Shown here: positions 6,848-56,080 of the stretch, piece after piece
How positions within the stretch are numbered: position 1 is the first letter of the stretch
Layout: every line of letters starts with the position of its first letter
DNA from: a virus
Strand: one strand, 5' to 3'
Virus record (IMG/VR): IMGVR_UViG_3300002350_000003
Span: 1-64,000 of that record
DNA: 64,000 bases
Program-made: the position numbers and the translations under genes
Notes under the pieces: model-generated
The model's database searches: none
Told to the model about the DNA's origin: nothing
The model's input: the letters and a program-made list of their open reading frames with translations, nothing else

Positions 6848-6851
6848 TAAA

Positions 6852-7265
6852 ATGCCAACAAGATCTGAAAATACTAATATAAATCCATCTGAACTTGTAC
6901 CCGCAGGAGATAGAAAAATATCTCGGCAATTGATGGATAATATATCTGGTGTGACTCATGGATATACATATGATAGTGTATCAGTAACTAGACCTCCAAG
7001 CCCTCTAACTCCAAACGGATTAATTTTTGCTACTACTGGAGTATCAAATGGCTATGCTTCTACTGTTAGCGGTATAACTAATTTTACTGCTTACAATGAC
7101 TATATACATTATGCTCCTGTTGGTGCTGGTGGTAGCCTTGGTGGAGCTTTAACTGGGGCGGGTATAACTAATGTTGTATCACCACCAGCTAGATTTAATG
7201 TATTTAACAATTTAGTCAAAGCAAATTTTAGATTTGAAATTTATACTAGGCAATATAGAACATGA
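6852..7265 (+). CDS. Small probable virion protein (137 aa)
   Basis: Short Ser/Thr/Gly-rich protein with a glycine-rich stretch near residues 93-105 and no membrane segment. It overlaps the next gene by four bases, so it belongs to the structural operon. No recognisable domain. Its size and position between two very large genes suggest a minor tail or baseplate component or a connector. That is inference from context only. Confidence 0.55.
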   Translation: MPTRSENTNINPSELVPAGDRKISRQLMDNISGVTHGYTYDSVSVTRPPSPLTPNGLIFATTGVSNGYASTVSGITNFTAYNDYIHYAPVGAGGSLGGALTGAGITNVVSPPARFNVFNNLVKANFRFEIYTRQYRT

Positions 7266-12016: not shown

Positions 12017-12031
12017 AACAAAGGAAAATAT

Positions 12032-15000: not shown

Positions 15001-15409
15001 AGTTGACGCATATGGCGAAACCGCTGATGGAGGAACTAGTAATCCATTTAAATCTGGAGTCATAAACGGAGTTATAACATCAAATAATGTTGATCCCGAC
15101 CCCGACGCAAAAGCTGTAATAGAATTAAGTTCTGGTAAAGTCATAGAAAAACTATTAGTTGATAAGTTACAGTTTCATGGCTACAAAAAAGTTACCCCGT
15201 CTGATGCAAATGGAAAGGGTGATTCTGGAGGATTTGTTTATGGTAATAAAACTACAACTTTTTCATTACCAAAAAATAGTACTGGAAAATACGATTTATT
15301 CTTTTTCTTTGTAAGCGATATTGCTAATTATCCAGAAGGAGGAGTCCTTTGGGAAGGTGCTAGCGAACCGCAGGGAAGATATGTCAATCTAGAAATAACA
15401 ACTATATAA
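12032..15409 (+). CDS. Very large probable virion protein (1,125 aa)
   Basis: Starts 15 bases after the previous stop with an 'AAAGGAAAATAT' ribosome site. Mostly beta-type composition. Near residues 955-975 it has a 'GxGYSEGDKV' motif of the kind seen repeatedly in phage tail proteins as a small beta-domain linker, and a Gly-rich region follows. The C-terminal 60 residues look like a compact beta domain. Two close Cys residues (about residues 308-314) could bind metal or form a disulfide. Inference: tail or baseplate protein. No specific assignment. Confidence 0.6.
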   Translation: MTNFFNSRSGSIVKTYHYYVTSDKKLHDIGLASYTRNSLEKFGKRKKNGVEQNDPDISEYLTGGVDSIKPILRGDGRTLIVYRFDKDTKRYLYTTNSATGEDNIFWTPSGDIVYTNLKTFQEKFDLYQKGWITNDTEAFNISYIWSKINTSLSGCISFQANGYSILSQASSGIVNMFLQSKGDGSNRGVAFQTPVIAGVASTAGGIQHAFGISETLPPGAFSAPDVGGAKNPNNTVAGPLNLHLNRGTGKWESGTTQTYCQILDDVPGVPLSDLPSNVDNIDNETLKLPFTSGIAMVMETEKGNPHLCVPCSMGCSVSEKHKITVVNRTPRAFVKGEVILASQINGDWVPVPLTNGVSVAKKLVFEWSQIQKYIVNAKGFFRNINDAGQFMDREVYTDTMRARFYNTLPSTSFTDNAQYNNLSNLRLLNLAKAESDKYEITSGGSINMNGIDDASLNSLGLQTLLNNRVSYNYMQFFDADIIGKDLGGNNLGTKLKNTVIAKTEPTSSDGVSSASVPTSWGLYFPDGYSTASVGRTITNTTSVSHYSSLNIYTSSSLNFAKYRNTVQTDQFNLKDMYFYHMPAQMALNGSGNQSIDYQFFPMTSSFTNDGFCDKMIRYIQNPVKGDWLKTSTGKNLYGLTPINSTSVQFTPLSLELALSSTKILDNGLGAVIYPNNGGYKKLKTNLNNIKAYGIYATDDSFFGKAWDRLQISDVNLESDGSVLAKISFGDRLTNLGWGKENYGKLENIGKPFRGDRPDGGPDLIPTQGNSMESSNVVGIIAAKATFSLTAGGAIELKTNNKFGMLAYKQSTMANSSFSTVFGGIAGLFIQDNSGLSKTSDNVQWGGSLGDEKVQDLGTTALWCAVYDHCPNTIYDGRYFAPLQFNPSGASVDFDEVNLSVGQIVGLANKTIPTIKNKIRRNMLLSNGGFAYVKKVISANPASINIKKAGRGYSEGDKVVFKIGGKEAVFLVSQTSGGGGIGGLIPDPDLGVDAYGETADGGTSNPFKSGVINGVITSNNVDPDPDAKAVIELSSGKVIEKLLVDKLQFHGYKKVTPSDANGKGDSGGFVYGNKTTTFSLPKNSTGKYDLFFFFVSDIANYPEGGVLWEGASEPQGRYVNLEITTI

Positions 15410-27728: not shown

Positions 27729-29300
27729 TTAAATTTCATGAATCTTATCTACTATAAATGATGTATCTTTATCACTTACTGACCCACAGAAAATTAAGTT
27801 GTTTCCTTCATATAGAATATATTTATACTTTTCACGGGTCTTTGGAAATACTATAACACTGTCTAATATGCACGTATCATCCTCTATAGTCAAAAATGAC
27901 ATGACCTGACCCTTAGATTCGCCTTTATTGATGGTATAATCTGATAGTCTTTGAATGTTGGCAACTACGCACATATCCTTACCCTTCTTGCCATTGATTA
28001 TTTCTTTGCAAGTTGTGTTAGCAGCAGAAGTGTCAGAAGTCTCAACCTTCGTCATTGTAACTGGACATCCTAGAAATTTGACCTCTTGATCTATAATCCA
28101 AGTTGGATCGTCTTCTAGATCATACGGTGGACTTACTAATAGTTGTATTTCATTTTCTATAGCCTGCTTCCTGTCAGCTTTGCTAGTTCCACCACCATCT
28201 TTTTTAGTCGGTGCTAAATCTCTCAAGCAATCCACAAAGGAACTCCACTTTTTATCACTATAATGATTTAATATCCAAGTCTGTTCTGCTTTGGTGAGAG
28301 TTCTATAAATTTCATAATCATAGAGAGCTTTGTTTCTAGTAACACTGCTCTTGAAATTTCTAAAGAATCCTATTGAGGCTAAAGCCTTGAATGCAGTAGA
28401 GCTAATATTTGATCCTATAAAAAGCAAGATTTCAAGCCAAGTAAATTCCTTTACTGGTTTACTCAAAGTCTTTTCAGCTTCATTTATAGTTTCTATTAAC
28501 TTATCTCCGGTCGCACCCGTTAGTGACTTTACATCCTTAATACCAAAGTATATCTTACCACGCTTAATATTGAACTTTCTTTCAAAGTTGGTTAAGCTTG
28601 GAGTTCTTGTCTCAATATCAAATAGTTTTGCCTCAGATATCAATTCATAAACTTCTTGATGAGGGTCTTGCTTTTCATTCGCGTAGAACAGGTAAGACAA
28701 AAAGAATTCCTTGGTGTTATGAGCCTTAAAGTATGCACTCCAATAAGAACATACAGCATATGAAACACTGTGGGATTTATTAAATGCGTATCTTGATGAT
28801 TTCTCAATCCATCCGAAAATTTCTTCTGCGTTCTCCTTACTTACAATTCCAACACGCTCTGCCCCCGCTATGAATGATTTTTTGACTTCATTCATGAGGT
28901 CAGCCTTTTTCTTTCCAATGGCCTTACGAAGAACGTCTGCCTCTTGTAAATTGAAACCAGCGATTTTCTCTGCTATACGCATAGACTGCTCTTGATATAC
29001 AAGAACTCCATATGTTGGCTTTAGAATCTCTTCAAGTGCTGGATGAAGATATGTTACTTCTTCTCTACCGTGCTTACGGTCTACATAATGCTGGGTCATG
29101 CTTTTCCCATCAACAATTGCTTTCAAAGTTCCCGGCCTAATGATAGCAATTAGTGCTGATAGTTCTTCAATATTATTTGGTGCAACTTTTTTAGACCATG
29201 ATTTTCCAAGGTTACTTTCTAATTGAAAGATTCCCTTAGTCTTGCCTTCTGCGAACAGTTGCCAAGTTGTTTTATCATTATAGTCTAAATTATTTAACAT
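27729..29300 (-). CDS. dnaE: DNA polymerase III alpha, C-terminal half (fingers to OB fold)
   Basis: 523 residues from ATG 29300, which overlaps the exonuclease stop by 11 bases and is preceded by GGAAA; an earlier in-frame start is less supported. It begins exactly where family members continue after the third catalytic Asp: 'GIFQLES' (residues 23-29), 'IIRPG', 'YQEQ', 'RKAIGKKK' and 'NKSHSVSYA' are fingers-domain motifs. A helix-hairpin-helix region ('GIKDVKSLTGATG') and an OB-fold (last about 100 residues) follow. It has no catalytic aspartates of its own, so it must pair with the N-terminal half encoded at 29963-31588. There are no intein motifs at its start. Confidence 0.9.
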   Translation of the reverse strand: MLNNLDYNDKTTWQLFAEGKTKGIFQLESNLGKSWSKKVAPNNIEELSALIAIIRPGTLKAIVDGKSMTQHYVDRKHGREEVTYLHPALEEILKPTYGVLVYQEQSMRIAEKIAGFNLQEADVLRKAIGKKKADLMNEVKKSFIAGAERVGIVSKENAEEIFGWIEKSSRYAFNKSHSVSYAVCSYWSAYFKAHNTKEFFLSYLFYANEKQDPHQEVYELISEAKLFDIETRTPSLTNFERKFNIKRGKIYFGIKDVKSLTGATGDKLIETINEAEKTLSKPVKEFTWLEILLFIGSNISSTAFKALASIGFFRNFKSSVTRNKALYDYEIYRTLTKAEQTWILNHYSDKKWSSFVDCLRDLAPTKKDGGGTSKADRKQAIENEIQLLVSPPYDLEDDPTWIIDQEVKFLGCPVTMTKVETSDTSAANTTCKEIINGKKGKDMCVVANIQRLSDYTINKGESKGQVMSFLTIEDDTCILDSVIVFPKTREKYKYILYEGNNLIFCGSVSDKDTSFIVDKIHEI

Positions 29301-29970
29301 ACAAATTTCCGTCAGCAAAAGCCTTATCAAAGTTCATGTTTTGGTATACCGCACGATGAGTTTTCATAAGCTTAATAAATATATTTGCTTCATCTTTAAC
29401 GTCCTGTAGAGCATCGTGAGCATTGTCAAAACTTAAGCCCATTCTCTCACGCAAAGAATCCATGCTTATAGATCTAACACTGGGATCGCTTTCAGTCCAA
29501 GCAAATACACTATCCATGATATCTATCTTATAGACTCTACTGAATAGTTTTTGCTGCTCTCTCTCTTTGTCCCAAGGTCCAAAATCTCTACATAGTCTGT
29601 TTATTATGTGCATATCGAAGCCAATTATATTAAAACCAACAGGGATAGGATTAAAAAATGGTTCACCCTTCCAGTTGTATTGATCAACAAATTTTGTAAA
29701 TTTATTCCATACGGACTTTAAGGATGGTGCTAATTCTAATTGCTCCCTTGTCTTCTTTGTTATCTTTAGAGCTTCATCTTGTATGGGGTCAAATCCAGCC
29801 GCTATAGCTTTTTCATCATCAAAAATAGGCTTAATTTCACTGTTGAATTGCCCCTTCATCTGCAATGTTCTTCCATCTAAGGCAATAGCGGCGATTTGTG
29901 TTGGTTGAGTACGATGTGGATTGCGTGATCCTGTTTCAAAATCAAATATAATATAGTCTCTATTAGCCAT
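29290..29970 (-). CDS. dnaQ: DnaQ-type 3'-5' exonuclease located between the polymerase halves
   Basis: 226 residues. 'YIIFDFETGS' (D10, E12) is ExoI with the D-x-E metal ligands, 'GFNIIGFDMHIINRL' is ExoII, and 'NAHDALQDV' is ExoIII of the DEDDh type. Family role: proofreading of replication errors. Its start overlaps the N-half stop by 8 bases (ATGGCTAA) and its stop overlaps the C-half start by 11 bases, so the three proteins are probably made in equal amounts and work together. The length is near that of the epsilon catalytic domain alone. Confidence 0.9.
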   Translation of the reverse strand: MANRDYIIFDFETGSRNPHRTQPTQIAAIALDGRTLQMKGQFNSEIKPIFDDEKAIAAGFDPIQDEALKITKKTREQLELAPSLKSVWNKFTKFVDQYNWKGEPFFNPIPVGFNIIGFDMHIINRLCRDFGPWDKEREQQKLFSRVYKIDIMDSVFAWTESDPSVRSISMDSLRERMGLSFDNAHDALQDVKDEANIFIKLMKTHRAVYQNMNFDKAFADGNLYVK

Positions 29971-31588
29971 TAGATACTCCTGTTAGTTCTTCAATCTTCA
30001 TAATTTTATCTAGCAAATTGATTCCTAGAACGTCAAACTTTACGTGGCCCAGTGCCTCTAAGTCTGCCATTTCAAGTCCAGCCACCTTTTCTGACGAGCC
30101 TTTTTGTTTTACCATTGGGCATACCTTTTGAAGTGGCTCTGCTGAAATTACCACACCGGCAGCGTGTTTGCCTTGAGTTTTAAATGTTCCCTCTATCTGA
30201 ATAGCTTGTTCAAAATATTCAGCATACTCTCCCTCAAGTTTTCCATCTTCTGATATTCTACAGAAATCTCTTAGATCCTCAGAGTTATTAATCAAAGCCC
30301 ACTTAATAATAGATCGATCTTCATCATCCATTTCTGCTAATTGATCTGAGATTCTTGCTTCGTCTGGTATACAGTTACTTATAGCATTCATTTCAGAGAA
30401 TGAGCAAGCCTCATTAACACGTAAAACTTCCTTAATAGCACTCTTTCCTTGAAGTCTTCCAAACGTTAACATTTGGCTAACTCGACTATTCCCATACTTA
30501 TCTTTTAGATATGCAATAATTTCATCACGCTTAGTACCGGGAACGTCTATATCAATATCTGGTAGAGATATATGATCAGCACTGTTTCTTCCAGCGTTAT
30601 AAAATCGTGCAAATAGAAGGTCAAACTCTATTGGGTCAATCTTCGTTATGCCAATTAAATATGAGATTAAACATCCTGCGGCAGATCCTCTACCGGGACC
30701 AGATAGCCAACCCATATCATTAACGTGCTTTATAATATCACGAACAATAAGAAAATATCCGAATAGATTAGCATCTTTAATAACATCAAACTCTTCCTTG
30801 AATCTACTCAAATACTTCTGCTTATCTTCTTCGTTTGATACCTTGTTTTGATCTATTAATATTTTCTTCCAGCCAATACGACATAGTTCCTTGAGATAAT
30901 CTTCTTCTGATGCCCCTTTTGGACATTCAAATTTAGGCAACATTGGCTTGCTGAGAATATCGTAGTCTTCACACTGGTCATAAATCTCTTTTAGTTTAGA
31001 TGAGTCTAAGCCCTTAGATTCGTCTTTGTCTTTAACGTAGAAAGAGTCTTGCATAAAATATACCAATTTATCCATATGCTCTTGGGGATATTTTGAGTCT
31101 ACATTTATACCACCGCTGTTGTCTGGCCTAATGCATTTCTTTATTTTTGGTAGCGTAGTCTTCATATCAGAACATAATAATATTCTGTGAAGTTTGGCAT
31201 CTTCCCTATTTGTATAATAACTAATAGGCATTGATTCAGTAGGAGCATTATAGACACTAATCAAATTTTTACTGATATTTGTGTTGTCATATTGCTCTGG
31301 TAATTTACCATTTTCATCTAGTGATGAAACCATCTCAATTAACTCGTACCACCCATCTTTATTCTTAGCAAAAAGTGTAGCAAAATCAAATGAGCATCCA
31401 ATGATGGGCTTTATACCCTGTTTTTTGCAGGCTTTATAAAAAGCAACTGCACCAGATAATGTTTTATAATCACAAATACCACATGCTGGATATCCATTAT
31501 ACTTACATTTTTTAGCCAATTCTTCTGGCTTTGAATAACCTTTGAGCAAACTGTAATGGGTATAATTCTTCAACGGGAACCAGTTCAT
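29963..31588 (-). CDS. dnaE: DNA polymerase III alpha, N-terminal half (PHP and palm)
   Basis: About 541 residues. The PHP domain (1 to about 220) is degenerate: where active PHP enzymes have 'HVHTEYS', this has 'KNYTHYS', so the metal His residues are lost. 'LSGPGRGSAAGCLISY' (about 295-310), 'LPDIDIDVPG' (D346 and D348) and 'HVKFDVLG' (about D518) supply the full catalytic aspartate triad. The protein ends about 20 residues after the third Asp, whereas a normal alpha subunit continues for 500-600 more residues. A sigma70-like promoter and AAGGAAA ribosome site lie upstream. Polymerase activity needs the separate C-terminal protein. Confidence 0.92.
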   Translation of the reverse strand: MNWFPLKNYTHYSLLKGYSKPEELAKKCKYNGYPACGICDYKTLSGAVAFYKACKKQGIKPIIGCSFDFATLFAKNKDGWYELIEMVSSLDENGKLPEQYDNTNISKNLISVYNAPTESMPISYYTNREDAKLHRILLCSDMKTTLPKIKKCIRPDNSGGINVDSKYPQEHMDKLVYFMQDSFYVKDKDESKGLDSSKLKEIYDQCEDYDILSKPMLPKFECPKGASEEDYLKELCRIGWKKILIDQNKVSNEEDKQKYLSRFKEEFDVIKDANLFGYFLIVRDIIKHVNDMGWLSGPGRGSAAGCLISYLIGITKIDPIEFDLLFARFYNAGRNSADHISLPDIDIDVPGTKRDEIIAYLKDKYGNSRVSQMLTFGRLQGKSAIKEVLRVNEACSFSEMNAISNCIPDEARISDQLAEMDDEDRSIIKWALINNSEDLRDFCRISEDGKLEGEYAEYFEQAIQIEGTFKTQGKHAAGVVISAEPLQKVCPMVKQKGSSEKVAGLEMADLEALGHVKFDVLGINLLDKIMKIEELTGVSNG

Positions 31589-43888: not shown

Positions 43889-44964
43889 AGATCGAATCCT
43901 CCTAGGTCAACATCCTCTAAGTCATTCTTACTAGCACCAATCTTATATGAAGTAATTTCATGCTCTTGTGGTGCAACTTGTACTGATTCACTATTCATCC
44001 AAGGGTCAGTCCATCCAGATATTGGGTTTCTACAACCCTTATCGTATGGTAGTCCTATATTCTTTCTTCTGGTCATACATAGCCAATCAATGTATTCAGC
44101 CATTACCTTTTCATTTAAGCCAATGATTGATCCATCTTTAAATAGATATTCTGCCCATGCTTTTTCCTCATTTGCTGCGGATTCAAACATTGCTACGGCT
44201 TCTTCTTGGCATTCTTCTGCTATCTTTACAAATCCCTCTTCTGGAACATTATGAAGAATCTTAATAATTTCCTGAGTATTATAAAGATGTAATGCCTCAT
44301 CGCGTTTTATTAGTTTAATAATGTCTGCATTACCGATCATTTTCTTATTTTCTGCAAACGCGAATGCAGAAATAAATGAGACATAAAATCTAACTGCTTC
44401 AAGTATGTTAACGCTAATGAGAGTTAGGTAAATCTGCTTTTTTATATCTTTAACTTTGCCGGAATGACCTACTTCTCGTAAAGCGTTATATTCTTTTATT
44501 GCTACATTAGCTCGTTTGAGAATTTCTTTGTCTGTTAAACAGCTATCTAATATTTCACTAGGATTATTATATACGTTCTTAATAATATATGTATAGCTGT
44601 AACTATGAATTTGTTCGAAAAATTGCCAAACATTCATACAAGCTTCTAATTCTGGATTAGAAACATACTGATTGAAGCTTGGAACACCCCTACAAATAAC
44701 TGAATCAAGCATAGTTTGATATTTAAGATTAGATGTGAAAATAAATCTTTCATTCTCACTCATAATATCATCATTTTTGAAGTCATTACGATCTTTCTTC
44801 AGTTCTATTTCTTCTGGACGCCAAAAGAATTCAATTTGTTTCTTATATAAATCAAAAAATACTGGATATTTAAATTTATCATATCTCTGTAATGATAAGT
44901 TTTCGCCTAAAAATAATGGTTGCTTCAAGTAGTCAACGTTTTTAGTATTTAATATTGTTTTCAT
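43885..44964 (-). CDS. nrdB: Class Ia ribonucleotide reductase beta subunit
   Basis: 359 residues. Diiron ligands are visible: D87, E117, H120, E189, E223 and H226, with the radical Tyr at Y124 ('EQIHSYSYT'). The C-terminal tail 'DLGGFDL' is of the kind that binds the alpha subunit. The start at 44964 lies inside the 3' end of the HNH gene. With NrdA it reduces NDPs to dNDPs. No intron or intein interrupts it. Confidence 0.95.
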   Translation of the reverse strand: MKTILNTKNVDYLKQPLFLGENLSLQRYDKFKYPVFFDLYKKQIEFFWRPEEIELKKDRNDFKNDDIMSENERFIFTSNLKYQTMLDSVICRGVPSFNQYVSNPELEACMNVWQFFEQIHSYSYTYIIKNVYNNPSEILDSCLTDKEILKRANVAIKEYNALREVGHSGKVKDIKKQIYLTLISVNILEAVRFYVSFISAFAFAENKKMIGNADIIKLIKRDEALHLYNTQEIIKILHNVPEEGFVKIAEECQEEAVAMFESAANEEKAWAEYLFKDGSIIGLNEKVMAEYIDWLCMTRRKNIGLPYDKGCRNPISGWTDPWMNSESVQVAPQEHEITSYKIGASKNDLEDVDLGGFDL

Positions 44965-45412
44965 GTTCCAATCTTCTTTCTATAGCTTTATTTATATCAT
45001 CAAAAAAGCCTAACTCTTTGCGTTTACCATTAATTTGTATTCTTACTTGCCACTTTTTTCTTATTTTATTCCAAGAAATACCTCTATACCCACTAGTTGA
45101 ATCTTTTCTAACATGTGAATTACTTTGATTAATTTCTTGTGTGACATCTCGTAAATTATTAATACAATTATTCTGTTTATTTCTATCAATGTGATCTATT
45201 TGATTTTTAGGCCATTCATCATAATACAAATACCATGCCAATCTGTGTGCTTTATATCTTTTATATCCTACTGATATTACTATATACCCCTTATTATCAA
45301 TAGTACCTGCGATATCTCCCGCCTTTGTATATCCCAAATTAGGATTTATTTTCCAGAATATATTTCCAGTGTTGGGGTCATATAATAACATTTCTTTTAA
45401 ATTATATTGCAC
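44942..45412 (-). CDS. HNH homing-type endonuclease with AP2-like domain between nrdA and nrdB
   Basis: 156 residues from a GTG at 45412 that has GAGGGTGG five bases ahead; ATG 45391 is the alternative. The N-terminal 'YDPNTGNIFWKI' and 'AHRLAWYLYYDEWPKNQIDHIDRNKQNNCINNLRDVT' regions form the HNH_3-type nuclease, with His in 'HRLAW', 'IDHIDRNKQNN' and Asn in 'NNLR'. The C-terminal 'GYRGISWNKIRKKWQVRI' is an AP2-like DNA-binding domain. Overlaps nrdA by 11 and nrdB by 23 bases without truncating them. Confidence 0.88.
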   Translation of the reverse strand: MQYNLKEMLLYDPNTGNIFWKINPNLGYTKAGDIAGTIDNKGYIVISVGYKRYKAHRLAWYLYYDEWPKNQIDHIDRNKQNNCINNLRDVTQEINQSNSHVRKDSTSGYRGISWNKIRKKWQVRIQINGKRKELGFFDDINKAIERRLEHENNIKY

Positions 45413-47636
45413 AAGAACCACCCTCACAGGTAGATAACAAATCTTTTTCAGTATTACCATCAGAATCTGGCGTATTGCAATAATAAAAGTTCTTTACACC
45501 ATATTTATACCCCTGTATCTGATCTTTGATCAAAATACTCAAAGGAATATTGCCGTCAGGATAATGGGAATAATTATAGTATAAATTAACACTTATGCTC
45601 ATATCAACAAATTTTTGTAACACTGCACAAATATTTAATATTGCTTTGTTGTTTGGCATTTCCCACGCTAAAGTATAGTAATTTTTACGAGAAGCATAAT
45701 TTGGCACTAATTGCTTGAGGATGCCGTTCTTAGCCTTTTTATAAGACATGAGGCTACGGACAGGTTCAATTCCATTTGTGCTGTTCTGGATGACGCTAGA
45801 GGACTCACAGGGCATTATAGCAGTCAGAGTAGAGTGTCTTAGACCATGAATTTTGATCCTAGCTCTCAAACCCTCCCAATCCATAATATACTCTGGCTTA
45901 ACCAGTTCGTCAACTGTTTTTTTGTACCAATCGATTGGAAGCAATCCGCGAGAATATTTAGTCTCATTAAATTTATTACATGGACCCTTGAGTTCAGCAA
46001 GTTTGCAGGACTCATTTAGTAAGTACCACTGAATTTTTTCCATGATTTCATGAACTAATCTTAATGTTTCGGCATCATCATATTTTAGCTTGTGCTTTGC
46101 TAAAAATGCAGCAAAATTAGTAATACCAATTCCAAGTGATCTACGATTCTTTGTAAAGTTTTCACCAGCCGCTACTGGATAATCTTGATAATCAATAATA
46201 GATTCTAAAGACTTTACAGCAATAGAGCAAGCTTTTTCTATGTCCTTGTTATCTTCCAGTTCAAGTAGGTTTAATGCTGACAGAATACAAATACCAATTT
46301 CGCCTTCTTTGTCATCTATAGATGATATTGGTTTAGTTGGATGGATAATTTCTTGACATAGATTACTCATGTAAACTGGGGCATCCCATGATCCATGCTC
46401 ATTAGCATTATCAATATTCATAACATAAATGCGACCAGTTTCTAATCTCTCTTTGGTAAAAATTTCAGCAAGCTTTCTTGCGTTAATTTTCTTCTTCATC
46501 TTTACGTAGCGAGCGTTTTCATATTTTTCATATAGCTTTTTGAAGTCTTCATTATTGTTCATAGAACTATAAAGACCACCAGTTTCATGAGGACTCATTA
46601 GTGTAATGTCTTCATTTTTAATTAAACGCTCATAGAATAACTTGTTAAACTGAACAGAATAATCTAGCTTTCTTACTCTATTATCGTCAGTTCCCGCGTT
46701 ATTCTTTAATGTCATTATATCTTCAATTTCATAGTGCCAAAATGGAATATGCACAGTAGCAGAACCACCACGAATACCATTCTGACTTGTTGCTTTAACC
46801 GTTGACTCAAATATCTTTAAGTATGGGATAAGACCAGTATGAATTACTTCGCCGCCCCTAATGCTAGAGTTAATTGGGCGAATGCGGCCAATATTTAAAC
46901 CAATGCCAGCCCTTCTTGCAGTATACTTTCCAACAGCGTGTACGCTTGAAAATATAGAATCAAGATCATCTTCAACGTCTACTAGAACACAGCTAGCAAA
47001 CTGTTTGATTTTAGTTCTTACTCCAGCCATGATTGGAGTTGGAAGATTAATCTTAAATGTAGAGAAACATTCATATGCCTCTTCTACTTCCTCTACGGTA
47101 TCAAATAAAGACATAGCGATTGCTACATAAGCAAACTGTGGTGTTTCATACATCTGTCCAGTAGACCTATTCTTAATAAGATACTTATCTATCATTTGCT
47201 GTAATCCAGCATAAGTATATAAATAATCTCTATCATGATCCACGAACTTTTCAATCTGATCTATTTGTTCTTTACTCCACTTTGATAATAGAGTTTCATC
47301 ATATATTTCAGCTTTTACATTACTAGATATATGAGACAACAAACTTGGTGGAGCATCATGGTTTTCCCAGAGATCTTTTCTAAGGGACATATTCAATAGT
47401 CTAGATGCAACATATTGATAGTTTGGCTTGCTGGGAGAAGTTAGATCGTTAGCAGACTTGATTAAGATTTGATGGATTTCTTCTGTGGTTATTCCATCTT
47501 TTAAAGAGAGGTTAGCATTCATCTCTATATCTGACCAAGAAACGTTAGCGATGTCTTTTATCGCCCACTCTACAACCTTATGAATCTTCTCAACTGTATA
47601 GACTTCGAAACTACCGTTCCTTTTTTGAACGCGCAT
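45402..47636 (-). CDS. nrdA: Class Ia ribonucleotide reductase alpha subunit
   Basis: 744 residues, near the usual 750-760. An N-terminal ATP-cone-like domain (first 90 residues, 'VQKRNGSFEVYTVEKI') is followed by the barrel, with 'CVLVDVEDDLDSIF' (redox Cys), 'NLCQEI' (active-site Cys-Glu loop), 'MPCESSSVIQNSTNGIEPV' and the radical-transfer Tyr pair near 'ASRKNYYTLAWEM'. The C-terminal 'CEGGSCAI' is the mobile redox CxxxxC tail. An ATP cone suggests dATP feedback control is retained. Confidence 0.95.
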   Translation of the reverse strand: MRVQKRNGSFEVYTVEKIHKVVEWAIKDIANVSWSDIEMNANLSLKDGITTEEIHQILIKSANDLTSPSKPNYQYVASRLLNMSLRKDLWENHDAPPSLLSHISSNVKAEIYDETLLSKWSKEQIDQIEKFVDHDRDYLYTYAGLQQMIDKYLIKNRSTGQMYETPQFAYVAIAMSLFDTVEEVEEAYECFSTFKINLPTPIMAGVRTKIKQFASCVLVDVEDDLDSIFSSVHAVGKYTARRAGIGLNIGRIRPINSSIRGGEVIHTGLIPYLKIFESTVKATSQNGIRGGSATVHIPFWHYEIEDIMTLKNNAGTDDNRVRKLDYSVQFNKLFYERLIKNEDITLMSPHETGGLYSSMNNNEDFKKLYEKYENARYVKMKKKINARKLAEIFTKERLETGRIYVMNIDNANEHGSWDAPVYMSNLCQEIIHPTKPISSIDDKEGEIGICILSALNLLELEDNKDIEKACSIAVKSLESIIDYQDYPVAAGENFTKNRRSLGIGITNFAAFLAKHKLKYDDAETLRLVHEIMEKIQWYLLNESCKLAELKGPCNKFNETKYSRGLLPIDWYKKTVDELVKPEYIMDWEGLRARIKIHGLRHSTLTAIMPCESSSVIQNSTNGIEPVRSLMSYKKAKNGILKQLVPNYASRKNYYTLAWEMPNNKAILNICAVLQKFVDMSISVNLYYNYSHYPDGNIPLSILIKDQIQGYKYGVKNFYYCNTPDSDGNTEKDLLSTCEGGSCAI

Positions 47637-49339: not shown

Positions 49340-49347
49340 TGTAATTC

Positions 49348-50646
49348 CTAGTATAAAGTGAATGAAGACAAATCAATTGTTGTTACAGTATATGAACTAC
49401 CAGATCTATTATTTCTTGTCCAAAGTAGATTCATATTAGTATTTAATGTACTTATAAAATTACTATAGAATGGTCCACTGTCTGGTCCGGTCCATGTTAT
49501 TATCAAAACCAATTGATTATTGATGATTAAAAATGATGGGTTACCACTATCTCCACCGATTATTGATTCATGAAATAATATTCTATTTGGGTATGTATTA
49601 TAATAACTATTATTGGGATCAAGATAATTTTGTGTTGGTTGCTGTGTATATGCGGAACTGCCCGTTGGGTCCACGTATAGAAATTCTTTTACTAAAGCTT
49701 TTTCTTCTTGATCTAAAGATAGCATTGGAAGTCTGTAGATGGTATAAGTACCACTTTTATTTCTATAAATTGTAGGTAAATATATAGACCAATTAGAAGG
49801 AAGTAATTTGGCAAAACTAATGGAATTTGGTACGTCAGAATCTAAAAGTCCCAAATAAATATCACTAGTCAATGTTGGCATTTTGTCTATTAATGTTCTT
49901 TCTATAACGACATTATCATTAGTAACAAATCTAACTTTAGCCCCGATATCTATTTCATAATGAGTAGCAAAAACTAAGTGACTTGGGCTAATTAGAGTTC
50001 CAGCTCTAGTATTTGATCCAGTTGTATTCCAAGGACTTATGCAAGTTAAATCTAAATCATAAGCCCAACAATTAGTATTTCTAACGTATGTAGAAGTTGA
50101 ATGGTTTTGAGTACTATAAATATCTTTTGCTATAGTTGGGTTTTTATTTAATAGTCTATTATCGACGCTATCAGAACAATTTTTTGCTAAACTACCAGAT
50201 GTAAATTCACAAAAAGCATCTATTTGTCCACCTATATTACAATTGACATTTACTTCTGCAATGTTAAAATCAGATGTATTTATTCCACTTGCTATAATTT
50301 TTACTGCTCTTTTAGAAGTGCTTCCCGTTGGCACTCCAGAACATATATAGTTGTTAGGATTTAAATTTGATAAAATACTGTTATCTGTACTATATACAGT
50401 AACTGATATATCATCTTGTTTATATAATATTATATTAAAATCAGTTATAGTAGATGAATTAGTAGATCTGAATACTGTAGCGTCATAATTCGTAGTATAA
50501 CCAGAGCCAGTAGAAACTAATATCCTATCTTGGGGCTGTGCTGTGATTTTTACTCTATCTCCACCAATATCTGGTTTTTTAAACAGATAAGATGAATTCT
50601 CAGATATAGAACCACAATTGAGAGGTATATTTTGAGCTTCTATCAT
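49348..50646 (-). CDS. Trypsin-like serine protease, copy B, following fibre B
   Basis: 432 residues. The N-terminal 150 residues are beta-rich with Cys near residues 11, 102, 136, 146 and 157. The protease domain has the full triad: H229 ('FATHY'), D262 ('SDIYLGLLDSDVP') and S367 in 'IGGDSGNPS'. 'NTNCWAYDLDLTCISPW' carries two Cys shared with copy A. No signal peptide. It overlaps the fibre gene by one base (TAATG), so the two are co-translated. Serine proteases with this fold normally cut peptide bonds. Here the virion context suggests a tail-associated protease, but that is inference. Confidence 0.8.
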   Translation of the reverse strand: MIEAQNIPLNCGSISENSSYLFKKPDIGGDRVKITAQPQDRILVSTGSGYTTNYDATVFRSTNSSTITDFNIILYKQDDISVTVYSTDNSILSNLNPNNYICSGVPTGSTSKRAVKIIASGINTSDFNIAEVNVNCNIGGQIDAFCEFTSGSLAKNCSDSVDNRLLNKNPTIAKDIYSTQNHSTSTYVRNTNCWAYDLDLTCISPWNTTGSNTRAGTLISPSHLVFATHYEIDIGAKVRFVTNDNVVIERTLIDKMPTLTSDIYLGLLDSDVPNSISFAKLLPSNWSIYLPTIYRNKSGTYTIYRLPMLSLDQEEKALVKEFLYVDPTGSSAYTQQPTQNYLDPNNSYYNTYPNRILFHESIIGGDSGNPSFLIINNQLVLIITWTGPDSGPFYSNFISTLNTNMNLLWTRNNRSGSSYTVTTIDLSSFTLY

Positions 50647-51950
50647 TATGGTGTTCCATAGCTAGCTTGACAGTAATTTACTGCCGCTACCCATCTAATA
50701 TTTTTAGTTGCTAATCCAGTAACTCTAATAGACAATCCTCCATTTGTAGCATCTGCTGCTACGCTGGCTAAAGCCGAAGTCATACCAGCATCTTTCCAGC
50801 TTGTTTCAGTGGGTGTTTCAATCAAAGCGGTAGTACTAGCACCAACCCCTCTTTTAATACCTCCAACAAAATTCCATACGGCTGAAGAAGTATCCGTGTC
50901 ATTATAAGCACTAATTTGTATGTTAAAATTTACCGTAGTTTTATCTGGTAAAAATATAAAATTTCTTGAAGTCGTGTTACTTGGAGATGTTACTAGAGAT
51001 GCAGATCCATTTGCCGTTAAAATTACATTTGATGTATTACTTGAGGTTTCAGTTCTTAGCACTATGGTTGATCGCTGTGCATCTCCAGCAGAAGCAAAAC
51101 TACCACCAGCCTGTGCCACTTCTCCATATAAAGTAGTTTTTGCGGATATACCACCTAAAATAGATGAATATATTCCGCTAGCAATATTGTTTTGACCGTT
51201 AATGATGCTAGAATAGTTAGCAGTTGCTGTGTTTTGATTCCCATTTCCAATAAAAGTATAATCTGAAATAGCAGAATGACCAAATCCATTTATAATAGAA
51301 GAATAAGTTCCTCTGCTCATATTAAAAGTTCCATTACATATCAACCCATAGTTAGGAGACGTTACAGTATTTCTTAAACCAGTGATTATGGTAGCGTTAC
51401 TAGAGGCTGGTGATCCAGCAGTATTTCTATCTCCATTAAGAATAGATGTATAAACACCGCTACCAACACAGCCATTACCAGATAAAATTGTTATATTATA
51501 ACCACTTGCAGTACAAGTATTAGCGTGATAAATACCATTATAGTTAAAACTTGAACCAAGCAGTGATGAAATTATTGAGTTTCCTGATCCCAAGCATAGA
51601 TTTCCGCTTCCTAATATATTGTTAAATTTTGTAGTATTATTACCAGAGATTTCAACTATTGGGGATGAGATTACTATTCCGCCAACTGTAGATCCATCAC
51701 CAACATATAGTTTTTTAGTATCGGTTGTCCATAACGGTTCTGCTACCGATGGAGTTACCAATAGTCTTTCTGAATCAAGACCCTGCTTTAATTGCAAAGT
51801 TGCAGCTTGATTTAGTACAGAACTTCTTAATGTGCTGGCAGAAACTTTTTTTGTTATTGCTTGATCATTTGGGCTATCCACCATAACAAAAAGATCATCA
51901 TCTGTTACAGATGATACTGATGGTAACTGCGTTATTTTTACAACACCCAT
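50646..51950 (-). CDS. Tail fibre / adhesin with trimeric beta-roll-like repeats (fibre B)
   Basis: 434 residues. The N-terminal 'KITQLPSVSSVTDDDLFVMV' and 'PLWTTDTKKLYVGDG' segments match the N-terminal domain often found in phage fibre/tropism proteins, as in Mtd-like adhesins. Residues 95-280 hold repeats of the type 'SSIINGxxN', 'SSILGG', 'TIITGxxN', resembling the left-handed beta-roll of trimeric autotransporter adhesins. The C-terminus is a compact beta domain and probably the receptor-binding part. A good TAGGAG site precedes ATG. Confidence 0.75.
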   Translation of the reverse strand: MGVVKITQLPSVSSVTDDDLFVMVDSPNDQAITKKVSASTLRSSVLNQAATLQLKQGLDSERLLVTPSVAEPLWTTDTKKLYVGDGSTVGGIVISSPIVEISGNNTTKFNNILGSGNLCLGSGNSIISSLLGSSFNYNGIYHANTCTASGYNITILSGNGCVGSGVYTSILNGDRNTAGSPASSNATIITGLRNTVTSPNYGLICNGTFNMSRGTYSSIINGFGHSAISDYTFIGNGNQNTATANYSSIINGQNNIASGIYSSILGGISAKTTLYGEVAQAGGSFASAGDAQRSTIVLRTETSSNTSNVILTANGSASLVTSPSNTTSRNFIFLPDKTTVNFNIQISAYNDTDTSSAVWNFVGGIKRGVGASTTALIETPTETSWKDAGMTSALASVAADATNGGLSIRVTGLATKNIRWVAAVNYCQASYGTP

Positions 51951-51959
51951 ATTAAACTC

Positions 51960-53171
51960 CTAATAAGATAAAAAAGATGAAAGATCTATTTCAGTTAGTT
52001 GATACCCACCGCCAAGCTGAGACATCATTGTGTTGATAGCATTTTTTCTTTGAGTTATAAATGTACCCAAACTAGAACTAGTCCAAACTGTAAGAACTAC
52101 TAATTGATTGTTAATTATTAGAAATGATGGACTACCAGAATCTCCGCCAATAATATCTTCATAAAATGATAATCTAAAAGAATTTGTCGGGCGCATCAGT
52201 ACAACTTGATTAGATATTGCATATAAATCAGCAACCATAGCTTTTTTTTCTTGATCCGTTATTAAAACTGGAAGTTTTATTGGATGAGAAATAGAAGGTA
52301 AATACGATGTCCAGTTTTCTGGCAAAATTTTAGCAAATGATATACTATTAGGAACATCAGAATTTAATACACCAATAGTTATATCTGGATAATATGGAGT
52401 GTATGAAGGATCTGTTTGCAATGTTTCAATAGTTCTATTAATAACAATATTGTCTGATGTGACATATCTTATTGTTGTTCCTACTGGTGGTTGATAGTGG
52501 GCGGCAAATAAAACATGACGAGGAGAAATAAGTACTCCCGCCATATTATTGCCACCATATGAGTTCCATGGACTTATGCACGTTAAATCTATGTCTGAAA
52601 CCCAACATCCTGTATTTCTAATATAAATATTAGATGAGTTGTTTATATTAGAAAAAATAGGTTTTGAGTAACCGGGAACTTTGTTGCTTATACGACTGTC
52701 GATGGCATCAGTAGTATTTTTTGCTAATGAATTATTAGCCCAACTGTTAAAAGAGTCTATATTTCCAGAATATGTTTTTTGAGCATACAGTCCTATTGCT
52801 GATGTTTCACCATCATTAGATATTGCTGTAATAGTACAATATCCATCATTCTGATACGTAGCTATTCCACCATTATTATTTATAGTTAATACAGATGGAT
52901 TGGATGATGAAAATTTAACAAGGCTATTGAATGTAGATTGATTGAATATATTTTGTATAGTAAAATCTGTAACATATTCAGCACTAGTTTGCCTATTGAG
53001 CATTTTATCTTTATCATAAGCTATAGAATTAGAGCCAGACACTGTAATTCTATTTATGACATTACCTACAATGTCAAAAGATCTATCGCTAATCCTTTTT
53101 TTAGCATAATTATTGAAGTTTACGGTTGATGCTAAACCGCAGTTAATTGGATGATTTACAGATGGATACAT
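51960..53171 (-). CDS. Trypsin-like serine protease, copy A, following fibre A
   Basis: 403 residues. An N-terminal Big_2-like immunoglobulin-type segment (about 85-130, 'SSSNPSVLTINNNGGIAT') leads to the protease domain with H225 ('FAAHY'), D263 ('PDITIGVLNSDVP') and S345 in 'IGGDSGSPS'. C189 and C198 match copy B and may form a disulfide. The two proteases align through the whole catalytic domain and end with the same 'IDLSSF' motif, so they are paralogues. It sits one base after fibre A, the same arrangement as copy B. Confidence 0.8.
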   Translation of the reverse strand: MYPSVNHPINCGLASTVNFNNYAKKRISDRSFDIVGNVINRITVSGSNSIAYDKDKMLNRQTSAEYVTDFTIQNIFNQSTFNSLVKFSSSNPSVLTINNNGGIATYQNDGYCTITAISNDGETSAIGLYAQKTYSGNIDSFNSWANNSLAKNTTDAIDSRISNKVPGYSKPIFSNINNSSNIYIRNTGCWVSDIDLTCISPWNSYGGNNMAGVLISPRHVLFAAHYQPPVGTTIRYVTSDNIVINRTIETLQTDPSYTPYYPDITIGVLNSDVPNSISFAKILPENWTSYLPSISHPIKLPVLITDQEKKAMVADLYAISNQVVLMRPTNSFRLSFYEDIIGGDSGSPSFLIINNQLVVLTVWTSSSLGTFITQRKNAINTMMSQLGGGYQLTEIDLSSFLSY

Positions 53172-53172
53172 A

Positions 53173-54678
53173 TTAGTTAGTAGTTAGTGTTACTCCTCTG
53201 GTTACTAATGCTTTTGCACTAGAGCCAGCTTTAATGATAGTGGCTGTGCCAGCACCAGTTGCTGTTTGAGATGATATAGTATAAGTAAATTGATTACTAT
53301 TAGTTACCGTAATAACAGCATACCTGTTTGCATTTGTAGCTGTTGTAATTCCACTGACTCTTAATACATCTCCACTGAGATATCCATGATTAGTTAAATT
53401 TACAGTACAAGTTGTACCAGAACAAACGAAATTTGAACCATTGGTAGTAATACTGCCTAAATTTGAAGGAGATGCGCTAGACCCTCCACTAATATTGATA
53501 CTTCTTGCATTAGGAGATCCATAAGATGTTGTTCCATTAGTTCCATCCATGTATGCGAATGTTGCTAATAAATTATCAACACTACTTTGATTTAGCGAAG
53601 CATTAGTTATAGACACATTCAAACCACAACTTTTCCATGTTCCAAGAGAAGGAAGAGTTAGTGTTTGTAAAACGGGGGTTGTGAATGTTATGGTACTAGA
53701 AAAAGAACTCCCTACCGCTACTATCGATGGAATAGATATTGATGTCATAGAAGACGAAGAGATATTAAAATTTCCACCGTTGCTAGTAACAACATACTGT
53801 AATGATGGTAGAGATAAAGAGCTTAAGCTGTTTGCTGTTAAATTAAAATAATCAATAGTATTTAATAATGGTAAGCTTATTGATGTCAAGTTTGAGCCAG
53901 TAAATAATAAATATTTTGCATAAGTGAGCTTTGGCATTTGAAAAGACGTTAGAGCATTTGCTGTTAATCCAAAATTCCCAGTAATATGTACAATTTCTGG
54001 TAATGACAGAGTTGTTAAACTATTCATCGTAGTAGAATCAAACAAATTTCCATTTATATATTTAAAATTATTTAGTAATATGCTTGTAAGATTAGTGACA
54101 GTACCCATAGTAGAAAATAAATTACCGGTAAGACCTTCTATGTTGGATGAAATAGTAGCTATTCTACCATCAACAAAATCTTGATTATTATAGAGGGGCC
54201 ACGAACCTTCAACCCACGGTCCTGTTCCTGTTAACACATTTCCATTTATTGTCATTATGTTTTTAGGAAAAGTAATAAGGGCTGCATTCCTTGAATATAT
54301 TGGAGTAGACCCTGTGATAGTCGTCGTTAGTGCAGGTATGCTTTCAGAAAAACTTATTGGCACACCTCCTTGTGTAATACCATCACCCATTCGTAATACT
54401 TTGGAGTCGGTAGCCCATAAAGGCTCACCTTCTAATGGAGTTATTGCATTAACTTCTGCTAATGTTCCTCTACGAATTTGTAAATTAGCTGGAGATGTAA
54501 TATCAACCCACTGATTATTGCGGCGACCATATGTAATAGTGCCAGATGGTGCATCAACATCCTTCCATAATATTTTTTTAGTTACAGGTGTTCCATCTGG
54601 ATTATCTACCATTACCAAAACATCGTCTGGAGTTATAGAGGAACTAGATGGTAATTGGTGTATTCTTGTGACAACCAT
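53173..54678 (-). CDS. Tail fibre with leucine-rich-like repeats (fibre A)
   Basis: 501 residues. The N-terminal part is like fibre B ('RIHQLPSSSSITPDDVLVMV', 'LQIRRGTLAEVNAITP', 'PLWATDSK'), the Mtd-type attachment region. Residues about 185-370 hold irregular repeats such as 'LTTLSLPEIVHITGNF' and 'LTSISLPLLNTIDYF' of 20-25 residues each, resembling BspA-type leucine-rich repeats used in surface adhesion. The C-terminal 100 residues are a Ser/Thr/Asn-rich beta domain. Likely receptor-binding tail fibre; the repeat region probably sets specificity. Confidence 0.75.
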   Translation of the reverse strand: MVVTRIHQLPSSSSITPDDVLVMVDNPDGTPVTKKILWKDVDAPSGTITYGRRNNQWVDITSPANLQIRRGTLAEVNAITPLEGEPLWATDSKVLRMGDGITQGGVPISFSESIPALTTTITGSTPIYSRNAALITFPKNIMTINGNVLTGTGPWVEGSWPLYNNQDFVDGRIATISSNIEGLTGNLFSTMGTVTNLTSILLNNFKYINGNLFDSTTMNSLTTLSLPEIVHITGNFGLTANALTSFQMPKLTYAKYLLFTGSNLTSISLPLLNTIDYFNLTANSLSSLSLPSLQYVVTSNGGNFNISSSSMTSISIPSIVAVGSSFSSTITFTTPVLQTLTLPSLGTWKSCGLNVSITNASLNQSSVDNLLATFAYMDGTNGTTSYGSPNARSINISGGSSASPSNLGSITTNGSNFVCSGTTCTVNLTNHGYLSGDVLRVSGITTATNANRYAVITVTNSNQFTYTISSQTATGAGTATIIKAGSSAKALVTRGVTLTTN

Positions 54679-54941: not shown

Positions 54942-55859
54942 TTAGAATTGATCTTTTAATGTCCAAATTACTTTTCTTGGAGGAAAGCCGTCTACATCAC
55001 TAAATACCCAAGAGCCATTCTGTGCTAACATTTCTGCTGCATCTCGTTCTCTTATCCAGAAACTTCCATCTGGTTGATCTAAACGCTTCTCACCATTATT
55101 CCAAACCCCCCAAGAGTTTTGGACTAAGAATAGTGTTTCATTATAAATTTCATGAGTATCATCCATCCCAATCCAAGCCATCGCGTGACCCCATGATCCA
55201 GATCGGGCGGCAATACCATTCTTATCTCTTCTAGAACTAAATCCAGAATTACTGCATACACTAATAGAATAACCGTTGGCTATTGCATCTCTGGCTTGAT
55301 CTATTGTGTTAATTAAACTGATAGTCTTAACTTGATGTTTCTTTGCTGCTTTTACTAATTCTTCTGGAACACCAGTACGACCCCATCTGCCACCAATAGC
55401 ACTATATGTTGAAAGATCATAATCTCCGTACTTTTGACGAAGTAATATTCCTCCATTTTGGTGGACGAATTTAGCAGCACCACCACAAGTCATACCTTCA
55501 CCGCCGTGTCCGCGTGAACCATAAATACCTTCAGTAGCACCACGGGCCACAAACTCTTCTCGTTGTCCATTTATAATTTCACAACTGCGTGTAATATCTA
55601 CGCTATTTCGCGTTGCATGTGAAACACAATCTCCTTGGACTTGCCTTTCTGATGGACCAAAAGAGGGATCAAACTTCAAGAGAGACTTAAACGGTAGGGA
55701 TAGTTTTCCTTTTCCAGTACCATATAAATCATGTGCTGCCACACCAAATAGTGGATGTGGCAGTTCTCCTAAGAGCTTGTCCAACTCTTTTGGGTCACAG
55801 TATGATCCTACAAAGCCATCTTTATAGGCTTTTAATAAATCTTTCGGTGTCTTGAACAT
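54942..55859 (-). CDS. Papain-like (C1-type) cysteine peptidase
   Basis: 305 residues from ATG 55859, overlapping the holin-candidate stop as TGATG; a GTG one codon earlier is possible. The triad is in papain order: Q75 (oxyanion) and C78 in 'QGDCVSHA', H225 in 'SWGHAMAWIG', and N248 in 'VQNSWG'. No signal peptide. A substrate-like propeptide (residues 1-65) is present. Known role of family: peptide-bond hydrolysis. Directly downstream of the holin candidate it may act as a lysis enzyme, or it may process virion proteins. The two cannot be separated here. Confidence 0.8.
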   Translation of the reverse strand: MFKTPKDLLKAYKDGFVGSYCDPKELDKLLGELPHPLFGVAAHDLYGTGKGKLSLPFKSLLKFDPSFGPSERQVQGDCVSHATRNSVDITRSCEIINGQREEFVARGATEGIYGSRGHGGEGMTCGGAAKFVHQNGGILLRQKYGDYDLSTYSAIGGRWGRTGVPEELVKAAKKHQVKTISLINTIDQARDAIANGYSISVCSNSGFSSRRDKNGIAARSGSWGHAMAWIGMDDTHEIYNETLFLVQNSWGVWNNGEKRLDQPDGSFWIRERDAAEMLAQNGSWVFSDVDGFPPRKVIWTLKDQF

Positions 55860-56080
55860 CACTTTGAGTTATCCTTTGCCCATTTAACTACTGTGTTAAT
55901 TAATACTACTGTAACAGGCACAATTAGTGCTGTCATGCTACCAAGATCAAGCTTAGTTAGATTTTCGCCAATATATGTTAATAGTGCGGCTAAACCAACT
56001 AATGCTGCGTTCTTACCAACTGAAATAAGATCAGTTGTATTTAATGAGAATGCTTTTGAACCTACTTTTAGATCTAACAT
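55859..56080 (-). CDS. Holin candidate (73 aa, two membrane segments)
   Basis: Two predicted transmembrane helices (about residues 24-42 and 48-66) joined by a short loop 'GENLTKLDLGS', and a basic C-terminus ending 'KWAKDNSK'. That is the size and topology of small two-helix phage holins. Strong GGAGATATAAG site. It lies between a membrane PAS protein and a papain-like peptidase. Holin identity is from topology and position, not a sequence signature. Confidence 0.6.
   Translation of the reverse strand: MLDLKVGSKAFSLNTTDLISVGKNAALVGLAALLTYIGENLTKLDLGSMTALIVPVTVVLINTVVKWAKDNSK

Follow-up and report, generated by a model that had tools for sequence, protein, structure and literature searches.

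The window analysed here is a stretch of 64,000 nucleotides of viral DNA (positions 1 to 64,000 of IMG/VR record IMGVR_UViG_3300002350_000003), and all coordinates refer to it. At positions 49348–54678 four open reading frames were confirmed, all on the minus strand, in the order that had been proposed from the sequence: fibA, encoding fibre A (53173–54678, 501 amino acids), protA, encoding protease A (51960–53171, 403 amino acids), fibB, encoding fibre B (50646–51950, 434 amino acids), and protB, encoding protease B (49348–50646, 432 amino acids). An overlap of 0–1 base within each pair had been claimed; this is correct for pair B, where the genes overlap by 1 base, whereas those of pair A are separated by a gap of 1 base. 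The spacing between protA and fibB is 9 bases. An identical Shine-Dalgarno context, TTAGGAGTTTAA, is present at both fibre genes, and none was found at the corresponding position of protA or protB; translational coupling of fibre and protease within each pair is therefore plausible.

Properties of the proteases

Proteases A and B share 39% identity across 434 alignment columns (E 2e-86). The numbering of the catalytic residues in the original prediction was exact for both. In protease A the codons for His225 (FAAHY, 52497–52499), Asp263 (YPDIT, 52383–52385) and Ser345 (GGDSGSP, 52137–52139) were assigned from the sequence and from alignments with the family and with trypsin; in protease B those for His229 (FATHY, 49960–49962), Asp262 (TSDIY, 49861–49863) and Ser367 (GGDSGNP, 49546–49548) were assigned from the sequence and the family alignment, all six on the minus strand. 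An AlphaFold2 model of protease A (m86e814a62b5a; pLDDT 90.5, pTM 0.78) consists of an N-terminal tail of low confidence (residues 1–30), a predicted Ig-like domain (residues ~32–130), for which Big_2 gave a weak match (E 7.8e-4), and an S1/trypsin-like domain (residues ~137–403). The model had 298 PDB fold matches at E ≤ 0.001, and the best 50 of the 298 were all chymotrypsin-like, with E values from 1.6e-8. Searches of PDB sequences with single proteins gave nothing relevant, and trypsins were reached by profiles alone: the family profile matched PDB trypsin (E 4e-4), with the three residues falling on H57, D102 and S195, so that the triad, in a fold predicted to be trypsin-like, corresponds to that of trypsin. 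Pfam Trypsin was not matched by protA or protB; four of 37 relatives matched it (PF00089, best E 1.5e-5). In all 37 family members, whose mean column identity is 32%, H225, D263 and S345 are invariant, and they are among only nine columns of this kind. Judging from the model, the two proteases are divergent trypsin-clan enzymes (clan PA, family S1) with N-terminal Ig-like domains, and the invariant triad suggests that catalysis has been kept under selection.

Two further features had been noted as common to both proteases. The Cys pair (C189/C198) is indeed present in A and B, but it is not family-wide, occurring in 28 and 31 of the 37 members, respectively. The C-terminal "IDLSSF", likewise found in both, is well ordered in the model of protease A as an element of the fold; the idea of a special tag was rejected, since it is a signature of the whole family, bacterial members included. 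The proteases had also been thought to be possibly secreted. Neither protA nor protB has a hydrophobic signal peptide at the N-terminus, unlike the bacterial relatives L049 and L051, and one relative carries a tail-fibre adaptor; secretion is thus not supported.

Properties of the fibres

Similarity between fibres A and B is confined to the first ~110 residues (39% identity, E 6e-20). The Mtd-type N-terminus predicted for both was corroborated, since Mtd_N exceeded the Pfam gathering score of 26.3 bits in fibA (31.4 bits, E 1.8e-7) as well as in fibB (29.2 bits, E 8.4e-7). Fibre A starts with a phage adaptor (QLPSSSSITPDDVLVMVD...), followed by the Mtd_N domain at residues 67–102 (54373–54480, minus strand; Pfam and genome search). 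Its display region, within 53173–54678, probably contains a beta-solenoid/LRR-like repeat of ~21 residues, seen at residues 180–320 of a model with low confidence overall (mean pLDDT 51.8) and in particular outside these residues. Among the weak fold matches of this model LRR proteins were prominent, and LRR-like fibres are present in relatives. Fibre B contains an N-terminal phage adaptor, an Mtd_N domain (51687–51794, minus strand; Pfam and genome search), beta-roll-like GG/N repeats and a conserved C-terminal head with the last residues IRWVAAVNYCQASYGTP, all within 50646–51950. Thus, the claim that the display regions differ was borne out; the "leucine-rich" designation of fibre A is tentative, and naming of its fold was dropped, LRR-like being suggested at most.

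Occurrence of the protease family and possible hosts

The family was found in at least 33 viral clusters (90% identity); Pfam, PHROGs and NCBIfam mostly fail to recognize it. Immediately upstream of the protease, or in one case one gene further away, a fibre or tail gene is located in at least 22 of the 33 clusters; podovirus MW202510.1, where the protease and a beta-helix-type neighbour overlap by 4 bases, was left out of the 22. In at least 21 clusters, representing very different phages, the protease follows directly downstream on the same strand, mostly at a distance of 0–30 bases. The fibre types involved are unrelated (beta-roll, LRR-like, beta-helix). The protease of L022/L023 carries an N-terminal tail-fibre adaptor of its own (PHROG 1699, E 1.7e-12). 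Sulfotransferase-like genes are among those that adjoin the fibre or the protease. The proposed adjacency therefore recurs in many unrelated phages, with homologues mostly linked to fibres, and together with the trypsin-like fold and the triad this supports a module of a receptor-binding fibre and a serine protease of the active type. About one third of the viral clusters (e.g., L037, L041 and L043) have a protease without a recognizable adjoining fibre gene, and of 55 non-redundant fibres that have the C-terminal head of fibre B, 46 are found with no protease alongside; the protease is therefore an optional extra.

Homologues in bacteria occur mainly in PVC phyla, and some are present without any fibre. 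A scan of one genome for each of 84,980 species, which served as a rough stand-in for a non-PVC control phylum, yielded six protease matches, five of them titled Planctomycetota, Lentisphaerota, Kiritimatiellota or Verrucomicrobiota and the sixth "bacterium". In the prophage-like loci L131 and L139, on contigs of PVC-phylum genomes, tail genes adjoin the protease. The host of the phage may belong to the PVC bacteria.

Exchange of cassettes and origin of the two pairs

DNA comparison with the close relatives L009 and L010 showed an exchanged block from codon ~11 of fibA to the stop codon of protB (49346–54646, minus strand), with 90–93% identity outside and scattered patches of ~68–80% inside. 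With respect to L008 a sub-block from codon ~37 of fibA to codon ~343 of protA, just before Ser345, was exchanged (52145–54570, minus strand), the remainder of the locus being 93–96% identical. Breakpoints among close relatives are thus situated at the fibre adaptor on one side and, on the other, within the protease or immediately behind it, and the fibre display region and the protease are exchanged as one block. Pair B (49370–51856, minus strand) is common to the distant phage L011 at 86.6% DNA identity; in the compared flanks beyond it, matches were restricted to the C1 gene (66%) and to a patch of 78 bases.

If "duplicated module" is taken to mean a recent tandem copy, the term would not apply, since protB shares 84% identity with the L011 protease and falls into a clade separate from protA (support 100/99); each protease is nearer to proteases of other phages than to its neighbour. 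Pairs A and B therefore look like two cassettes which were acquired or diverged long ago. Protease clades follow the type of fibre head with 6 changes, a number as low as this being obtained in 0 of 200 shuffles; a five-member protease clade had support of 100/99.

Possible function

The gene order, S1 fold, invariant triad, linkage to fibres, block exchange and one natural adaptor fusion, all contained in the sequences, probably reflect a virion-borne, fibre-linked protease that acts on host surface protein, i.e., a counterpart of the sugar depolymerases. A host-recognition cassette would then be present twice at the locus. Each copy would supply a trimeric-type tail fibre, held on the tail by the N-terminal adaptor and the Mtd_N domain, and, from the adjacent gene, a trypsin-clan endoprotease of its own. 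We infer that the protease is present in virions and catalytically active, with substrate and timing as follows: situated most likely near the fibre tip or the baseplate, by means of its Ig-like N-terminal part, it would cut a host surface protein (S-layer, adhesin or receptor shield) once the fibre has bound, and thereby clear the path or free the virion from non-productive binding. Attachment to the virion is indicated indirectly by the L022/L023 fusion and by the absence of a signal peptide. The replacement of fibre and protease as one block suggests that the enzyme cuts host surface proteins, although linked genes may also be transferred together without functional coupling, and the occurrence of proteases without fibres and of type B fibres without proteases speaks against it.

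Other explanations have to be considered. The protease might make a single cut in the fibre it is paired with, while this is assembled or later, and thus mature or release it, similar to the S74 intramolecular chaperone. One-to-one pairing of the genes, the context for translational coupling, the joint exchange and the correspondence between protease clade and head type would fit such a role; it is unlikely, however, as a general one, and was rejected as an obligate one, because fibres with the fibre-B type head mostly lack an adjoining protease. Against it are also the pairing of one protease family with unrelated fibre types, the tail adaptor of the L022 protease itself and the bacterial homologues without fibres. 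Quite unlikely, too, is a function in detachment rather than entry, where a free or virion-bound protease would strip receptor protein from lysed cells and debris, so that progeny is not trapped, in the manner of influenza neuraminidase. The anatomy would be the same as in the preferred reading, and without a signal peptide release with lysis would be possible; the adaptor fusion in L022 argues for attachment to the virion, but gives no means of telling entry from release.

Trypsin-fold proteins without activity exist, and a domain of this kind, now used for binding only, could serve as a second receptor-binding protein, paired and exchanged with fibres as observed. Invariance of H, D and S in every family member at such a low mean identity would be unexpected once catalysis is lost, which makes this very improbable. 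Chance proximity of a common accessory gene deserves equally little credence: fibre regions do gather many accessory genes, e.g., those resembling sulfotransferases, but a position directly downstream, closely spaced and on the same strand, in very different phages, exchange boundaries which leave out the flanking genes and the adaptor fusion of L022/L023 all speak against it.

Comparison with known systems

Tailspike and fibre depolymerases, which cut sugars of capsules or LPS (PMC6116005), are similar in that an enzyme is tied to the receptor-binding apparatus, is exchanged with it and probably clears the cell surface; they are sugar-cutting domains of the spike, whereas here an S1 protease for proteins is encoded by a separate gene. 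In the part of that text which was searched "protease" does not occur, and "peptidases" refers to peptidoglycan enzymes. In Klebsiella prophages enzymes are also encoded beside receptor-binding proteins (PMC13123978); that description lists cysteine proteases and SGNH hydrolases, but no trypsin-clan enzymes. The modules of tail fibre and chaperone common to distant phages such as Alteromonas A5/V22 (PMC10579305) resemble the present pairs as two-gene host-recognition modules moved between unrelated phages, the partner of the fibre being a chaperone there and a protease here. A trypsin-like serine protease is annotated in another tailed phage, Sinorhizobium phage phiM9 (Sm_phiM9_102; PMC10783043). 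It is located near head genes on the opposite strand, is not linked to fibres and showed no significant similarity to the family profile; it was therefore rejected as a known member of the family.

Bordetella phage Mtd shares the Mtd_N domain with both fibres, and in the fibre A model 42 residues superpose on Mtd structures (rmsd about 1.1 Å), but the display regions of fibres A and B are unrelated to that of Mtd. No reverse transcriptase (RVT_1) was found in the 84-kb record, which is possibly incomplete, as a contig of 158.8 kb of the same virus exists; there is thus no sign of a diversity-generating retroelement, and this idea was dropped. The Peptidase S74 intramolecular chaperone of endosialidases is an example of proteolysis in fibre biology which acts on itself. 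Its fold and catalytic residues are different, and neither the two fibres nor the two proteases matched this domain at E ≤ 1.

Implications

In the open-access full-text literature searched no fibre-linked trypsin-like protease was found described, in agreement with the original statement that no phage system of this design was known, nor was a recurrent trypsin-clan, protein-cutting counterpart of the sugar enzymes of tails. A wider notion could perhaps be entertained, although more tentatively: a widespread, exchangeable two-gene system in tailed phages of PVC bacteria, in which a trypsin-like protease on the virion cuts the protein coat of the host, the specificities of protease and fibre are matched, and both are replaced together on a change of host. 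This would be the first class of protein depolymerases in phage tails. Due to the block-wise exchange a direct test is possible, since fibre and protease should have one common target surface. If the interpretation is true, protein surface layers would be the barrier which these phages must cross; access would also be gained to the phages of PVC bacteria, of which little is known, and to specific proteases directed at surface proteins of bacteria.

Gene arrangement

The original prediction described two fibre and trypsin-like protease pairs in tandem, and all four genes were found in that order, on the minus strand: fibA (53173-54678), protA (51960-53171), fibB (50646-51950) and protB (49348-50646). 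Overlaps of 0-1 base had been described within both pairs; pair B overlaps by 1 base, and the genes of pair A are separated by a gap of 1 base. A strong ribosome site, TTAGGAGTTTAA, is identical before fibA and fibB, and an equivalent site is absent at that place before protA and protB. The window belongs to an 84-kb virus record; IMG/VR contigs of 158.8, 128.9 and 95.5 kb contain sequence identical to it.

Protease fold and catalytic residues

Single-sequence searches with protA and protB gave almost no matches. The model of protease A, built from a family alignment of 37 relatives, was confident (pLDDT 90.5, pTM 0.78) and consists of a low-confidence N-terminus, an Ig-like domain (residues ~32-130; Big_2 match in 7 of 37 family members) and a chymotrypsin-like domain (~137-403). 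Its best 50 PDB fold matches were all S1 proteases, e.g., thrombin, factor Xa and trypsin (E from 1.6e-8), which bears out the trypsin-like assignment. A profile of the catalytic domain matched PDB trypsins (E 4e-4), with H, D and S aligned to H57, D102 and S195; the triad positions predicted for both proteases were exact. Only nine columns are invariant among the 37 sequences (R185, W202, N203, H219, H225, D263, L269, D344 and S345, protease A numbering), and since H225, D263 and S345 belong to them, the triad is complete in every sequence, strong sequence-level evidence that selection keeps the protease active.

Fibres and linkage

Each fibre carries an N-terminal adaptor followed by a Pfam Mtd_N domain; 42 residues of the fibre A model superpose on the solved Mtd N-terminus at about 1.1 A. 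Fibre B combines a beta-roll-like repeat with a C-terminal head terminating in IRWVA (IRW head). The repeat of fibre A is ~21 residues long, and relatives found at its position include a BspA-type LRR protein (L016; LRR_5, E 3e-18); given the weak model of fibre A (pLDDT 51.8), "LRR-like" stays a suggestion for its display region.

In the scans the protease turned up at 42 viral loci, the window's own virus being counted three times, and also in podovirus MW202510.1 and six bacterial contigs; clustering at 90% identity gave 39 clusters, 33 of them viral. By our reading of the annotation outputs, at least 22 viral clusters out of 33 have a fibre or tail gene directly upstream (one gene removed in L017), recognised by a match to the Mtd_N profile, to Pfam or to a PHROG, or by a shared display region of the IRW or LRR-like kind, so the adjacency recurs among homologues. 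Several of the other 11 have small genes of no assigned family upstream, and the neighbours are clearly different in L037, L041 and L043. The protease adjoins only nine of 55 non-redundant IRW-head fibres; thus, the protease accompanies fibres, yet the fibre does without the protease.

Two genes upstream of fibre A, at 54942-55862 (minus), lies a papain-like (C1) cysteine peptidase-like gene with the motifs GDC, GHAMAW and NSWG and a Pfam Peptidase_C1 score just under the cut-off. Its counterparts in related phages are 54-99% identical and lie to one side or the other of the fibre-protease block; it may be a third protease of the module. Another gene type found repeatedly in this slot, adjoining fibre or protease, is sulfotransferase-like (SGLPRSGSTLLCN or similar): it is present in L009 (3540-4340), L010 (7266-8066), L014 (4418-5293), L017 (5129-5977) and L131 (2748-3647), and occurs downstream of fibres in L062, L072 and L112, as if it coded for a further enzyme, likewise optional, of the host-recognition module.

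Block exchange

The ribonucleotide reductase and flanking genes of close relatives are mostly 85-100% identical to those of the window. In two of these relatives, L009 and L010, DNA identity drops at fibA codon ~11 and returns at the protB stop codon; in a third, L008, the drop is at fibA codon ~37 and identity returns at protA codon ~343, immediately ahead of Ser345. Phage L011 is distant and nearly unrelated in the flanks compared, yet the DNA of its pair B is 86.6% identical to that of the window (51856-49370). Fibre display region and protease are thus exchanged jointly, between a conserved fibre adaptor and a conserved protease end. Protease clades track the fibre-head type, the five IRW-type proteases forming a single clade (support 100/99); fibre-head labels change 6 times on the protease tree, a number as low in 0 of 200 shuffles, although this signal comes partly from near relatives and the tree bootstrap is not yet settled. 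The window's two pairs, originally taken for a duplicated module, are not a recent duplication.

Other genes of the window

An HNH-type homing endonuclease-like ORF (44942-45460, minus) lies between and overlaps both class I ribonucleotide reductase genes; it was not seen in L009, where these two genes adjoin. DNA polymerase III alpha (DnaE-type; 27729-31588, minus) is apparently split into two genes, 29963-31588 and 27729-29330, which flank a gene for a DnaQ-like exonuclease (29290-29970). Four large plus-strand genes (132-15409; 1621, 616, 1584 and 1125 aa), on the strand opposite to nearly all remaining genes, had no PHROG match at E<=0.001.

Bacterial homologues and host

A scan of 84,980 species (one genome each) yielded six protease matches, in Planctomycetaceae, Lentisphaerae, Kiritimatiellae, Pontiella sulfatireligans, Verrucomicrobia and one unassigned MAG. 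A match was present in 23 of 289 sampled genomes of Pontiella's phylum, versus 3 of 199 in Planctomycetota. By reading of the sequences, the protease of locus L131 stands between a tape-measure-like gene and a sulfotransferase-like gene, next to which is an LRR-like fibre; in locus L139 an Mtd_N-like fibre comes after the protease. Because of such matches in PVC genomes (Planctomycetota, Verrucomicrobiota, Kiritimatiellota, Lentisphaerota), some adjoining tail genes, a PVC host is likely for phages of this protease family; the window phage itself may have one as well.

Some bacterial matches are domains within large, apparently secreted proteins (1,136-1,359 aa). In four such loci (L047, L048, L049, L051), from PVC bacteria and one unassigned MAG, the protease domain stands at one end, and the partner parts are cadherin, TSP3, beta-helix or peptidoglycan-binding. 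By sequence these proteases appear to be an undescribed cellular S1 subfamily, from which the phage gene may have come or to which it may have passed.

Location and function

The protease had been proposed to be secreted or virion-bound. In relatives L022/L023 it opens with the type of tail-fibre adaptor that the surrounding fibres carry (PHROG 1699, long tail fibre distal subunit; E 1.7e-12). No signal peptide-like stretch was found in the two window proteases, whereas L049 and L051, both bacterial relatives, have one. Taken together, these observations speak indirectly for a virion-attached rather than a secreted enzyme. In two phage loci (L044:2861-5013, L045:5052-7230), protease and upstream gene both have hydrophobic, signal-peptide-like starts, unlike other phage members.

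For the window phage we infer location, activity, substrate and infection stage as follows: most likely, the protease would be carried on the tail alongside the fibre, which would bind first, and the protease would then cleave a host surface protein. The main rival readings are both unlikely: that it serves fibre maturation and, slightly less probable still, release from receptors.

Phage phiM9 has an annotated trypsin-like gene, which was rejected as a known member: it is unrelated by profile to the window family and located away from fibres. As originally supposed, neither a fibre-linked family of trypsin-like proteases nor a phage system built in this way was found described in the open-access papers searched. 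The closest ideas are sugar depolymerases (PMC6116005), enzymes, including cysteine proteases, adjoining receptor-binding genes in Klebsiella prophages (PMC13123978), and fibre-chaperone modules common to distant phages (PMC10579305). The fibre-protease pair can be classed as an enzyme-bearing receptor-binding module, in which a protease would replace the glycan depolymerase.
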